From contig NZ_LN868938.1 of assembly GCF_001182745.1 (NCBI RefSeq), forward strand, positions 1,860,001-1,924,000: a stretch of 64,000 nucleotides of DNA. The letters run 5' to 3'. A program made the position numbers and the translations under genes. This DNA is from Nocardia farcinica (lineage in GTDB: Bacteria; Actinomycetota; Actinomycetes; Mycobacteriales; Mycobacteriaceae). Every line of letters begins with the position of its first letter. The stretch's first letter is position 1. This document shows positions 38,387 through 50,012 of this stretch, piece by piece. The notes beneath the pieces are model-generated. The model was not told the DNA's origin. It was given only the letters and a program-made list of their open reading frames with translations, and ran no database searches.

Positions 38387-39091
38387 TCAGATCGCGCCCA
38401 GCGTCTGTTCGAGCGAATCCAGGTTCTGCCGCAGCCGTTCCAGGATCCGGCGGGGCCCGGCCTCGCCCATGGCGTCGGCTTCGGGGTCGATGACCGTACG
38501 CACCGCCATCTCGGCCAGCTGGGTGGCGGCCGCCCGCCCGTTCTGGTCACCCGGATGATGCCACCAGGCGATCCAGTTGAGCATGCCGATGATGCCGAGC
38601 GCGGCGGTGCGGGAGTCGACGGGGAAGAACTGCCCCGCCCGGATTCCGTCGTCGATGACGCCGACGAACTCCTTGAGCACTCGCCGCCTGCTGCTGCGGT
38701 AGGTGTTGGCCAGTGACTCGGGCAATTCGGCCTCGGAACGAATGAGCAGACGGAACCGTTCGGGCGCCTGCATCTGGTGGCGCGCGATGGACAGCGCCAT
38801 CTCGCGCAGCCGCTGTGCGGGGTCGAGGTCGTCGCGCTCGTTGATGGTGTGCAGCAGTTGCGCCGGTTGCTCGGCGATCTCGGTGACCAGCCGCGCCAGC
38901 AACTCGTCCTTGTTGGCGACGTAGTGGTACAGCGCGGGCCGGGTCAGGCCGGTCGCCACGGCGATGTCCTGCAGGGTGGTCCCGGCGAACCCCTTCTCGG
39001 CGAACAGCCGAGTGGCCTGCTCCATGATCTCGCGCTCGACGAGCTCACGGCGCGAGGTGCTCTGCGATCCGGCGCGTGCGTTCGTGGTCAT
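38387..39091 (-). CDS. TetR-family regulator
   Basis: This 234-residue TetR repressor has its helix-turn-helix near residues 25-70 (IMEQATRLFAEKGFAGTTLQDIAVATGLTRPALYHYV). It follows the FAD-hydroxylase gene by 28 nt on the same strand. It is therefore likely the last gene of the hyuA-hyuB-ligase-hydroxylase operon and the regulator of the divergent catabolic locus. The symmetrical element at 46917-47032 is a candidate target. The ATG at 39091 was chosen over an upstream extension because the extension lacks recognisable structure. Confidence 0.86.
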   Translation of the reverse strand: MTTNARAGSQSTSRRELVEREIMEQATRLFAEKGFAGTTLQDIAVATGLTRPALYHYVANKDELLARLVTEIAEQPAQLLHTINERDDLDPAQRLREMALSIARHQMQAPERFRLLIRSEAELPESLANTYRSSRRRVLKEFVGVIDDGIRAGQFFPVDSRTAALGIIGMLNWIAWWHHPGDQNGRAAATQLAEMAVRTVIDPEADAMGEAGPRRILERLRQNLDSLEQTLGAI

Positions 39092-39119
39092 CCCCGACAG
39101 CGTATGCGCTGCCGGTTCG

Positions 39120-40700
39120 TCACGCCGACGCACTGTGGACCCGCACCGGTGTCGCCGCCGCCGGGACGCCAGAACTCAGATGCACCAGATGCGTGCGCCC
39201 ACCGGCGAGCCCGGCCGCCGCGTCGGCCTTGTGCGCCTCGGGCACATCGACCACGACCGTCGCCCCGGACTGCCACCTGACCCGTTCGGCCAGCTCGAGC
39301 CGCGTCAGCACGTCGGCACGGTGGGGAGCGCCGGTCAACCAGACGACGCCCGCCTCGGGCACCGTCGCCAGCAACGCATCGGCCGCCTGCTCCCATGCCG
39401 ACGCGAGATCGACCTCGAGCACCGCGGTGGTCTCGTGCGCACGGAGGTCCGCGGGGGCGAGCCTGGAAGGGTAGGTCCGGCCGCCGTGCCGCAGCGGCTG
39501 CGCGCAGACCCAGTCGTCCAATCCGGCCGCGGGCACCGCCGCCGGTGTCACGCCCGCGTAGTCGGCCAGTCCGCGACGCGACACCTCCGGCGCCGAGGCG
39601 GCGAACCGGTCCAGGCTCACCTTCCCGGCACGGGTCATGTAGCTGACCATCAGCTGGTCGACCGGGAGCCCGAGCCGGCGCGGGAACGACTCCCACCACA
39701 GTTCGCTGCGGCGGGCGATGGACTGTAGGTGCTCCACGTCGGCGCGGCGCACCCGTTCGTACTCGGCGAGCGCCTCGCCCAACGTGGGGGCCGCTCGGAT
39801 GGCGCGGTCGAGGGCGATGGCGTCCTCCATCGCGAGCTTGGTGCCCGAACCGATGGAATAGTGCGCGGTGTGTGCGGCATCGCCGAGCAGCACCACGTTG
39901 CCGGTGTGCCAACGCCGGCAGGTGACGGTGCGGAAGCGCAGCCAGCGGGTGCGGTTGCCGATCAGCCGGTGGCCGGCGAGGGTCTGCGCGAACGCCTTCT
40001 CCAGGTAGGCCAGCGACTGCTGATCGGTCTCCGAGGGCGGAGTGTCGGCGGTCGTGCGGTCGAATCCCGCGCGCACCCAGGTGTCTTCGTCGGTCTCGAT
40101 GAGGAAGGTGCTGCGGTCGGCCGCGTATGGATAGGCGTGCGCGACGAACGTGCCGTGCTCGGTGGTGACCGGGGTGAACACGGCGCTGGGCAGGGCGAAA
40201 TCGGTGCCGCACCACAGGTACAGCCCGGTGCCGGTGGTGATGCGCGGCGCGAGCGCATCGGCCAGCCGGGTGCGGGCGGCGCTGTTGACGCCGTCGGCGG
40301 CGATCACCAGATCCGCGTCGAGTTCGGTGATCTCGCGCCGCTCGCCGAACCGCAGCCGTACGCCGGCGGCCTCCGCGTGCCGCTGGAGTACGGCCAGCAG
40401 GGTGGTGCGCGCGATGGCCAGCAGTTCGCCGTGGGACAGCCGGGCCACGGCGTCGCCGAGGCGCATCGACATGTCGTGCGGGTGCGCGCGGTCGACGATC
40501 TCCTCGAGCGAGGCGGAATCGGCGGCGCGCAGGTTGCGCTGGGTGCGTGAGGCGAGGCCGACGCCGAAACCGAAGGTGGTGTCGGGCGAGCCCTGTTCGT
40601 AGACGGTCACCTCCGCGTCGGGGTGGCTGAGTTTGAGCAGCCGGGCGGCGTAGAGGCCGCCGGGCCCGCCCCCGAGCACGGCCACGGTGCGCAGTTTCAT
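39120..40700 (-). CDS. FAD-dependent aromatic hydroxylase, salicylyl-CoA 5-hydroxylase-like
   Basis: This 526-residue group A flavoprotein monooxygenase has the FAD loop VLGGGPGGLYAARLL, the early motif TFGFGVGLASRTQRNL typical of salicylyl-CoA and anthraniloyl-CoA hydroxylases, and the second FAD motif VVLLGDAAHTAHYSIGSGTKLAMEDA. About 120 C-terminal residues exceed the usual size and look like a separate domain. The ATG overlaps the stop of the aryl-AMP ligase (ATGA), consistent with hydroxylation of a ligase-activated aromatic acid. The actual substrate is unknown. Confidence 0.82.
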   Translation of the reverse strand: MKLRTVAVLGGGPGGLYAARLLKLSHPDAEVTVYEQGSPDTTFGFGVGLASRTQRNLRAADSASLEEIVDRAHPHDMSMRLGDAVARLSHGELLAIARTTLLAVLQRHAEAAGVRLRFGERREITELDADLVIAADGVNSAARTRLADALAPRITTGTGLYLWCGTDFALPSAVFTPVTTEHGTFVAHAYPYAADRSTFLIETDEDTWVRAGFDRTTADTPPSETDQQSLAYLEKAFAQTLAGHRLIGNRTRWLRFRTVTCRRWHTGNVVLLGDAAHTAHYSIGSGTKLAMEDAIALDRAIRAAPTLGEALAEYERVRRADVEHLQSIARRSELWWESFPRRLGLPVDQLMVSYMTRAGKVSLDRFAASAPEVSRRGLADYAGVTPAAVPAAGLDDWVCAQPLRHGGRTYPSRLAPADLRAHETTAVLEVDLASAWEQAADALLATVPEAGVVWLTGAPHRADVLTRLELAERVRWQSGATVVVDVPEAHKADAAAGLAGGRTHLVHLSSGVPAAATPVRVHSASA

Positions 40701-48520: not shown

Positions 48521-48762
48521 CGGCGCTGTTCGTGCTCGACGTGCCGGAGAACAAGCCCGTCGCCGAGGTGGCCGGGCGTGACCCGGCGGTCAGCGTCGAC
48601 CGCGTGGGTCCGTACTTCAAGATCAGCGCGCCCGGCCCGATCAGAGTGGATCGGCGGGCGACCGGATGCAGGCATGCGGTCTGGTACAGCAGCGTGGCCG
48701 GCCTGATCGACTCGCGGATCGTCCAGTGGGACAAAGACGCGTTGGAGGTGCGGCCGCGATGA
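48517..48762 (+). CDS. Small protein of unknown function (81 aa)
   Basis: This 81-residue protein shows no recognised domain. It starts MTALFVLDVPENKPVAEVAG and contains YFKISAPGPIRVDRRATGCRHAVWYS, with one cysteine and one nearby histidine. Both ends overlap neighbours by 4 nt (VOC gene and hydrolase gene). Coupling on both sides shows it is a genuine operon member, perhaps a small enzyme subunit or accessory protein. The position is the only clue to its function. Confidence 0.75.
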   Translation: MTALFVLDVPENKPVAEVAGRDPAVSVDRVGPYFKISAPGPIRVDRRATGCRHAVWYSSVAGLIDSRIVQWDKDALEVRPR

Positions 48763-50012
48763 GCCCGACCACCGAACGCCCGACCACCGAACGACTCGGG
48801 GCGGGGCGATATCGCGAGGCCGCCGCGGCGCCGGCGGCCACCGTGACCTCGGTGCACGAGCTGGCCACCGCCGACGGCGCGAAGGTCGCCGGCGTCCTGC
48901 GCAGCGTGCCCGGCGCCCGAACCGTGGTCGCGCTCATGCATCCGCGCCAGGATCTCACCCACCACGTGCTGGTTCCCGAACTGCTCGCGCGCGGGTACGC
49001 GGTGTGGACGCAAGGCGCGCGGTCGCCCAACAACGACATCGCCCTGATCCACGAACAGGCCCTCCTCGACGTCGCGGCGGGTCAGGTCTTTCTGCGCGAC
49101 ACCGGATTCGAGCACGTGGTGACGCTCGGGCACTCCGGCGGCGGCACCTTGTTCGCGTTCTACCACCAGCAGGCGGGCCGCGCTCCGGGCGAGCGGCTCA
49201 CGCAGACCCCGGCCGGGCGGCCCATCGATCTGGCTGCCGCGGACATGCCGCTGCCGGACGGCGCGGTGTTCCTGGCCCCGCATCCCGGGCAGGGTGCCCT
49301 GCTGCTGCGGCTGATCGATCCGTCCGTGGTGGACGAGTCCGACCCGCTGAGCGTGGACCCGGCGCTGAACCCCTTCGATCCGGCCAACGGGTTCGCCGAA
49401 CCGCCGCACAGTTCCACCTACTCCGCCGATTTCGTCCGGCGGTACCGGGCGGCCCAGCGCGAGCGGATCGAACGTCTGGACGCCGTGGCCCGCGCCCGGG
49501 TGGCCGAGGCCGCAGCGGCGCGGCGCCGGTTCACCACCTCGCACGACCCGGCCGACCGCCGGGCCGCCCTCGTGCCACGGGTGCTCACGGTCTACCGCAC
49601 CGACGCCGACCTGCGTTTCACCGATCTGTCGCTGAGCCCGAACGAACGCCCCTACGGCTCGCTGTTCGGCCGCCGCCCGGACCTCACCGATTACGGACTG
49701 GTCGGCTTCGGCCGGTTCAGCACCCCGGAGGCGTGGTTGTCCACCTGGTCGGGACTGAGCACCAACGCCGACTTCGTGCGGTGCGCACCGGGAGTCACGG
49801 TGCCGTCGTTGTTCGTCGAACTCACCGGCGACCAGGCCTGTTTCCCGGAGGATGCCGCCGCGATGGTCGCCGCGCTCGGCGCCGCCGACACGACCCACAT
49901 CCGCGTCCGCGGAACGCATTTCGGCGGACCGATCGCCGAGGGCGAGCCCACCGGCGCGAGCCTGGCCGCGGTGGAGATCGACCGCTGGCTGGCGGAGAGG
50001 TTCGCGCGGTGA
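48759..50012 (+). CDS. Alpha/beta hydrolase
   Basis: This 417-residue protein has the nucleophile elbow GHSGGG near residue 130, early HPRQDLTHHVLVPELLARGY typical of the fold, a late acid in LTGDQACFPED and a likely catalytic His in RGTHFGGP. The central 150 residues form a cap-like insertion. It may hydrolyse an ester, thioester or ring-cleavage product of the same pathway. The start overlaps the small-protein stop (ATGA). It is the last gene of the rightward arm; a converging phosphoesterase gene begins 7 nt later. Confidence 0.82.
   Translation: MSPTTERPTTERLGAGRYREAAAAPAATVTSVHELATADGAKVAGVLRSVPGARTVVALMHPRQDLTHHVLVPELLARGYAVWTQGARSPNNDIALIHEQALLDVAAGQVFLRDTGFEHVVTLGHSGGGTLFAFYHQQAGRAPGERLTQTPAGRPIDLAAADMPLPDGAVFLAPHPGQGALLLRLIDPSVVDESDPLSVDPALNPFDPANGFAEPPHSSTYSADFVRRYRAAQRERIERLDAVARARVAEAAAARRRFTTSHDPADRRAALVPRVLTVYRTDADLRFTDLSLSPNERPYGSLFGRRPDLTDYGLVGFGRFSTPEAWLSTWSGLSTNADFVRCAPGVTVPSLFVELTGDQACFPEDAAAMVAALGAADTTHIRVRGTHFGGPIAEGEPTGASLAAVEIDRWLAERFAR

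Follow-up and report, generated by a model that had tools for sequence, protein, structure and literature searches.

A conserved nine-gene module in Nocardia farcinica and relatives that may carboxylate a phenolic compound and degrade it through a CoA thioester to maleate

A 64,000-nucleotide stretch of the Nocardia farcinica genome (contig NZ_LN868938.1, positions 1,860,001 to 1,924,000, hereafter the window; host genome 6.46 Mb) contains nine genes, arranged in two arms that diverge from one control region, and this set is a conserved module beyond chance. All nine genes occur together in 63 of 80 related loci, in seven gene orders; the enzymes belong to recognizable families with invariant catalytic residues, and an operator-like motif conserved in the relatives lies over the promoters. 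We tentatively read the set as a catabolic module in which a phenolic compound would be carboxylated to a salicylate-type acid and then degraded via its CoA thioester to maleate and fumarate. The most specific form of this reading, which we consider quite unlikely, joins an ATP-driven enzymatic Kolbe-Schmitt start (phenol to salicylate) to the opening of a gentisyl-CoA ring by a VOC enzyme that is gated by an MmoB-fold effector. Genes were identified from Pfam, NCBIfam and PDB matches, in which the identities claimed by an initial annotation, made from the sequence without database searches, hold. The features are as follows.

38387..39091, minus strand: TetR-family regulator, 234 amino acids; PF00440 and PF17932 above cut-off; found in 78 of the 80 loci.
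39120..40700, minus strand: FMO, salicylyl-CoA 5-hydroxylase-family flavoprotein that lacks a full reductase half, 526 amino acids; NF006101, 338 bits (cut-off 1078).
40697..42400, minus strand: LIG, aryl-AMP/CoA ligase of the salicylate/2,3-dihydroxybenzoate type, 567 amino acids; best PDB match 5WM2, 350 bits.
42397..44715, minus strand: HYB, HyuB-type beta subunit with a fused gamma-type four-Cys domain (about residues 684-762), 772 amino acids; PF02538, 436 bits.
44742..46844, minus strand: HYA, HyuA-type ATP-binding alpha subunit, 700 amino acids; PF01968, PF05378 and PF19278 above cut-off.
46845..47089, no strand: divergent control region, 245 bp; mirrored promoter-like sites at 46945-46917 (minus) and 47003-47032 (plus).
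46912..46927, no strand: left copy of the operator-like motif, over the left -10 box; 1 mismatch to CGTCGARTAYTCGACG.
47022..47037, no strand: right copy of the operator-like motif, over the right -10 box; 3 mismatches to CGTCGARTAYTCGACG.
47090..47845, plus strand: AMD, maleate isomerase, 251 amino acids; 250 of 251 residues identical to 2XEC.
47873..48520, plus strand: VOC metalloenzyme, predicted ring-cleaving dioxygenase, 215 amino acids; PF00903, E 3e-14; His13, His106, Glu150.
48517..48762, plus strand: X81, 81 amino acids, MmoB/DmpM effector fold by structure prediction.
48759..50012, plus strand: ABH, alpha/beta hydrolase with a large insert, 417 amino acids; Ser126, Asp358 and His387 in 62 of 62 rows; model pLDDT 82.1, and PDB matches.

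To collect the loci, the VOC alignment was scanned against named genomes, and the best 80 of 160 stretches with a relative were kept, a set that leaves distant relatives out of view; a gene was counted as present if its match had at least 35% identity and at least 40% query coverage. The genera represented in the VOC scan include Nocardia, Gordonia, Rhodococcus, Williamsia, Skermania, Mycolicibacterium, Klenkia, Blastococcus, Amycolatopsis, Pseudonocardia, Actinomycetospora, Streptomyces and Nocardioides. The other 17 loci are incomplete, many of them cut by a contig or locus end; one (L051) is without HYA, HYB and the isomerase, and another (L048) has just TetR, VOC, X81 and ABH within 10 kb. 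VOC, X81 and ABH follow each other in this order in all 95 loci that hold the three, and no fusion of X81 with VOC or ABH was found in these loci. Among 397 genomes sampled evenly across the order, 16 have VOC and exactly those 16 have X81. The initial annotation had asked whether the genes co-occur in other genomes, and by both counts they travel together.

Of the 16 VOC carriers, 15 have a close HyuB with the gamma-type domain fused to it (E at most 1.5e-33). Because weaker matches to the gamma-type domain of HYB also occur in 10 genomes of the 397 that lack VOC, a HyuB with such a domain is not confined to the module. In 20-kb stretches around the module of the 15 carriers other than the window's own genome, HYA was found in 12; the stretches L108 and L113 end before the HYA position, and L118 (genome G191) is without HYA. 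No FMO was found in the 20-kb stretch L119. A diverged module in L120 (genome G142) has VOC, X81 and ABH at 58%, no isomerase that we could find, and an FMO match of only 34%. In a sample of 396 genomes of the phylum, X81 was found in one, the window's own; homologues from Streptomyces-type and other genera do exist, and the closest named homologues of both VOC and X81 come from Nocardia. We found no description of the nine-gene set in the open-access literature, where no pathway with this set turned up either, in line with the initial annotation, which knew of none; the module is widespread and, in the open-access literature searched, undescribed.

We infer all of the substrates and the order of the steps. 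HYA and HYB would form an alpha/beta-gamma ATP-dependent carboxylase that phosphorylates the phenolic (enol-like) oxygen, activates bicarbonate and places the carboxyl group ortho to that oxygen. LIG would adenylate the 2-hydroxyaryl acid and transfer it to CoA, and FMO would add a hydroxyl group para to the existing one, which yields a hydroquinone of the gentisyl-CoA type. VOC, aided by the MmoB-fold X81, would then open the ring, after which hydrolysis of the maleyl product by ABH would release maleate and a C3 unit, and the isomerase would convert maleate to fumarate. The sequence that had been proposed from the letters alone, in which an acid is activated, hydroxylated and ring-cleaved to end as maleate, fits the enzyme families.

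The initial annotation offered carboxylation and lactam opening side by side for HYA-HYB and described a zinc domain fused to HyuB. The C-terminal four-Cys domain is there, and C690, C693, C740 and C743 are each kept in 67 of 67 rows (the window and 66 predicted orthologues of at least 700 amino acids, from 69 loci with HYB). Aligned by hhalign against three acetone-carboxylase gamma-type proteins of other genomes, the domain matched with probability 91 and E 1.1e-6, with its CxxC and CPxC motifs in register; alone it gave no result in Pfam and PDB sequence searches. In two loci it is a separate open reading frame of 94-96 amino acids directly behind HyuB (L153:9546-9830 and L154:9540-9830). 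A gamma subunit with Cys22, 25, 75 and 78 is described as present in acetophenone carboxylase (Apc) and acetone carboxylase (Acx) and absent in hydantoinases (PMC5214803). Carboxylation is favoured over lactam opening mainly because the module has a gamma-type domain, which hydantoinases lack; lactam opening is kept as an alternative. The HYB metal-site residues D79, H140, D143 and H165, also present in 67 of 67 rows, are common to hydrolases too and so are not decisive, and the phosphate motifs of HYA are kept.

The alternative, that HYA-HYB is an ATP-dependent hydrolase of aromatic or N-heterocyclic acids in which it opens a ring such as a lactam or imide, is unlikely in our estimate. It gains from the presence of the isomerase, since maleate isomerase is typical of pyridine routes, and from the higher scores of the pair to caprolactamase subunits (CapB 196 bits, Apc 172 bits). 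Indoleacetate metabolism offers a related pair, IaaCE, which has been described as a hydantoinase-like hydrolase (PMC8453981). The alternative is opposed by the fused gamma-type domain with its four invariant Cys, a subunit that the account of Apc reports as absent from hydantoinases (PMC5214803), and by the lack of an amidase in the set. The features looked for in a hydantoinase, oxoprolinase or caprolactamase, namely an Asp at the CapA Asp302 position and an alpha-beta pair without gamma, are not those of HYA-HYB.

The proposed carboxylase resembles Apc and Acx in combining alpha and beta subunits with a four-Cys gamma, which both of those enzymes have and which is fused to beta in the module (PMC5214803). 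It differs from them in having one alpha only, a Leu for a conserved Asp, an aerobic oxygenase set around it and an overall sequence nearer to caprolactamase. The scores to the ApcA, ApcC and ApcD equivalogs of NCBIfam (236, 395 and 190 bits) fall short of the cut-offs (1250, 1500 and 1500). CapAB is the closest NCBIfam and PDB match of both HYA and HYB, but in the available account it has a simple lactam as substrate and no gamma is reported (PMC8453981). Paralogous HYB-HYA pairs of 54-61% identity occur in L151, L152, L154 and L157. Those of L151, L152 and L157 (56-61%) lie in a run with genes that by eye resemble a flavin monooxygenase, an alpha/beta hydrolase and an MFS transporter, and represent a second HyuAB-gamma cluster of aromatic type, while the pair of L154 lies among genes that include, by eye, an aromatic ring dioxygenase look-alike.

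A second alternative keeps the same core route and changes the substrate of the carboxylase to an aryl methyl ketone, for example 2-hydroxyacetophenone, as in acetophenone carboxylase; the beta-keto acid would be activated and thiolysed to salicylyl-CoA, which FMO would then hydroxylate. Apc is described as making benzoylacetate, which goes through its CoA ester to thiolysis (PMC5214803). In L008, ABH is followed by genes that a family check identified as thiolase and SDR; the same pair was seen by eye in L006, and the family check also showed a partial thiolase at L080:6572-7426. Such neighbours hint at beta-keto acyl-CoA chemistry. One aerobic Rhodococcus is reported to carboxylate aryl ketones, though by a biotin enzyme: phospho-acetovanillone is its substrate, and the enzyme is stated to be non-homologous to the ATP-dependent enzyme of strain EbN1 (PMC9618137). 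A Rhodococcus ruber genome paper mentions a putative acetophenone carboxylase cluster. Only these few of the 80 loci showed a thiolase, however, which stands outside the nine-gene set, and LIG resembles ligases for salicylate rather than for beta-keto acids. We regard the ketone as an improbable substrate.

It is very unlikely, though suggested by one parallel, that HYA-HYB works in reverse or off the main route, decarboxylating or otherwise preparing an aromatic acid, and that LIG, FMO, VOC, X81, ABH and the isomerase are the real pathway. The parallel is the ARO microcompartment locus of actinobacteria, which likewise has a HyuAB of undefined function by an aromatic ring-cleavage pathway, where it adjoins a ring-opening enzyme; its authors describe the role as not known and suggest that the pair decarboxylates an aromatic molecule (PMC10470539). 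That locus differs in having 2-aminophenol meta-cleavage and shell proteins, neither of which is in the module (PMC10470539). Genome G191 also speaks for this alternative: it has LIG, FMO, TetR, isomerase, VOC, X81 and ABH in one run, with no HYA-HYB in the run or the preceding 20 kb and no gamma-type domain genome-wide. Its LIG, FMO and TetR are 43%, 45% and 38% identical to those of the window, against 70% for the isomerase, 72% for VOC, 63% for X81 and 66% for ABH. That G191 and L051 keep LIG, FMO, VOC, X81 and ABH without HYA-HYB is, however, also what is expected if the carboxylase is the entry step. Against decarboxylation, HYB is present in 15 of 16 carriers, and family members of known activity are described as spending ATP to carboxylate or to hydrolyse (PMC8453981, PMC5214803).

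The proposed carboxylation would supply LIG with a 2-hydroxyaryl acid, and the pocket of LIG is of the salicylate type. His254, Asn255 and Cys260 are present in 67 of 67 rows (sequences of at least 500 amino acids; LIG was found in 73 loci). Whether this pocket has Cys or Ser separates the specificities of these ligases. LIG has the Asn and the Cys of a salicylate-AMP/CoA ligase, and the same Cys is found in the salicylate ligases 5WM2 and 7TYB, while the 2,3-dihydroxybenzoate ligases 6E8O and 1MD9 have Ser. 5KEI, labelled a 2,3-dihydroxybenzoate ligase, also has the pocket Cys, and we take it to be MbtA, a salicylate enzyme.

Residues 1-365 of FMO align with the bifunctional salicylyl-CoA 5-hydroxylases at 39% identity over 366 columns with probability 100, so that the flavoprotein half of these enzymes is present. 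The tail matches the reductase end weakly, with probability 17, and the whole protein stays below the equivalog cut-off given in the feature list. Assignment of FMO as a bifunctional hydroxylase/reductase was rejected, because its tail is only weakly alike and the true bifunctional enzyme is elsewhere in the genome. That full-length salicylyl-CoA 5-hydroxylase/reductase lies outside the window at G000:C1:2935719-2938022 (L158, 1247 bits), which makes the FMO of the window a second, shorter member of the family. SdgABCD of Streptomyces sp. WA46 is said to have, like the module, an aryl-AMP ligase and a salicylyl-CoA 5-hydroxylase-type flavoprotein; unlike the module, it reportedly uses a gentisate 1,2-dioxygenase and has no HyuAB, effector-fold protein or maleate isomerase.

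The candidate for ring opening is VOC, which has a VOC domain and a His-His-Glu metal site of a kind common to other VOC enzymes. The three ligands named by the initial annotation are conserved: His13 is kept in 80 of 81 rows, with one gap, and His106 and Glu150 in 81 of 81. The nearest solved chain is 9U42, an unspecified "Glyoxalase" (34 bits). Gentisate 1,2-dioxygenase has some match in 6 of the 16 carriers, full-length in 4 and always below the family cut-off; since 12 of 16 carriers are without a full-length gene of this kind, the module does not depend on one and would have to bring an enzyme of its own for ring opening. The host genome itself holds a full-length gentisate 1,2-dioxygenase-like gene at G000:C1:707044-708093 (L103; 245 bits, below the family cut-off).

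X81 is predicted with high confidence to adopt the MmoB/DmpM effector fold. In predicted fold and in size it is like MmoB, T4moD and DmpM, the effectors of di-iron monooxygenases; it differs from them in that no hydroxylase is in the module set and in that its score to PF02406 (15.1 bits) is below the cut-off of 25. The X81 profile gave no matches against PDB sequences. We know this effector type only from di-iron monooxygenases, and a literature search for MmoB/DmpM proteins outside di-iron enzymes found nothing on point. None of the nine genes encodes a di-iron hydroxylase. A PF02332 hydroxylase is present in 9 of the 16 carrier genomes, including the window's, and none is detectable in the other 7; service to a di-iron hydroxylase encoded elsewhere was rejected as a general rule for this reason. 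These 9 genomes, and the fact that a shared fold is no proof of function, leave a small chance that X81 does serve such an enzyme, or is a bystander of similar fold, while VOC works alone. The 7 genomes without a detectable hydroxylase argue against this, as do the constant position of X81 between VOC and ABH and its presence in the same genomes as VOC. VOC is our inferred partner enzyme of X81.

ABH has no Pfam match and was assigned from its motif, the names of its homologues and a predicted structure, which shows the alpha/beta hydrolase fold and an insert. A described branch hydrolyses maleylpyruvate to maleate, by which gentisate-type products can end in maleate (PMC5658364). As predicted here, that route opens a hydroquinone-type ring and then hydrolyses the product to maleate, but it uses free gentisate and a gentisate dioxygenase, while the module is predicted to use a CoA ester and a VOC enzyme (PMC5658364).

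The isomerase would complete the pathway. It shows no difference of note from 2XEC/2XED, which is presumably the maleate isomerase of Nocardia farcinica and is reported to come from the work of Fisch in 2010. Cys76 and Cys194, described as intact in the initial annotation, are kept in 51 of 51 rows (isomerase found in 69 loci). Arylmalonate decarboxylase and the ectoine enzyme EutA were considered and rejected for this protein: at 80 and 82 bits it reaches neither NCBIfam cut-off, and it is almost the same as 2XEC, although it passes the Pfam Amdase cut-off.

The two arms diverge from a single 245-bp gap, as first described, and the mirrored promoters noticed in it are TTGACA-17-AATACT on the minus strand and TTGACG-18-AATACT on the plus strand, two sites where shuffled sequence gave a mean of 0.0. 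Both -10 boxes lie inside the operator-like motif, the near-palindrome CGTCGARTAYTCGACG. Across the genome, only the left copy matches it with at most one mismatch, and the right copy is not distinctive alone and is backed by the relatives. Just the left copy stands out because, at up to 3 mismatches, the genome has 193 sites per strand (56 for a reversed control); the remaining case comes from the relatives. Their divergent gaps contain the core GTCGAATA in 37 of 39 cases, on both strands in 26 of 39 and on one strand in the window; these loci are related and not independent. In the window the motif has 4 sites where 1.6 are expected, a weak excess that was reached in 10 of 100 shuffles. TetR may read this motif, and it would repress both arms through the operator copies over the mirrored -10 boxes.

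Within the arms, the initial annotation had nearly every junction as a 4-nt overlap, which applies to four of the seven same-strand junctions (HyuB/ligase, ligase/flavoprotein, VOC/81-amino-acid gene and 81-amino-acid gene/hydrolase). The others are gaps of 26 bp (HyuA-HyuB), 28 bp (flavoprotein-TetR, with the ATG start) and 27 bp (isomerase-VOC). An alternative GTG start of TetR at 39133 would add 14 amino acids and overlap the FMO gene.

Flanking genes were rejected as module members, since they are of other kinds on both sides and no family beyond the nine is shared by more than 12 of the 80 loci. On the left, genes for a patatin-like lipase, a flavin monooxygenase and an SDR form one run (35167-38377, plus strand) that converges on the TetR gene. 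On the right (50020-54219, minus strand), a metallophosphoesterase gene is followed by EutC, EutB and an amino acid permease (50573-54219), EutC and EutB being ethanolamine ammonia-lyase. Cytochrome P450 genes of one cluster lie beside or inside the module in L052, L056, L058 (by family search), L059, L060, L064, L073, L079 and L081. MFS transporters of one cluster occur in 11 of the 80 loci (L007, L008, L030, L035, L051, L059, L062, L063, L067, L069 and L080); the two that were scanned are aromatic acid/H+ symporter-like at 267-269 bits, below the cut-off of 419, and we count them in favour of the proposed pathway.

Several observations weigh against the proposed pathway. Activity is known for the isomerase only, by near-identity, and the isomerase is the one gene absent from L057, L061 and L076, where the others are present. 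For an aerobe that could hydroxylate phenol directly, carboxylation looks costly. The scores of HYA and HYB are higher for caprolactamase than for acetophenone carboxylase, none of them reaching the NCBIfam cut-offs, and the gamma subunit is regarded by the Apc authors as structural and far from the active site (PMC5214803). HYA has Leu305, in 66 of 66 rows, at the position of CapA Asp302, as placed by the DxGGT motif rather than by structure, and the caprolactamase paper calls this Asp conserved (PMC8453981). In LIG, Ala256 (invariant in the 67 rows) stands where five aligned ligases have Phe or Tyr, so the acid may be bulkier than salicylate and not salicylate itself, and Cys260 is replaced by Leu in G191. 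Instead of a dioxygenase, VOC may be an isomerase or some other enzyme of the VOC type.

Two features of the module are unusual and open to direct test: an effector fold without its enzyme and, within an aerobic oxygenase set, a proposed carboxylase whose beta and gamma parts are fused. If carboxylation is right, these aerobes would degrade a ring by first fixing bicarbonate to it. Should X81 be an effector, a kind of protein that belongs to di-iron monooxygenases would have been recruited to another enzyme, and X81 would be the first MmoB-fold effector to act outside di-iron monooxygenases. HyuAB pairs adjoin aromatic ring-cleavage genes in actinobacteria without a defined role; in this module one of these pairs is linked to two enzymes with predictable substrates, a ligase and a hydroxylase, which makes the question testable with purified enzymes.

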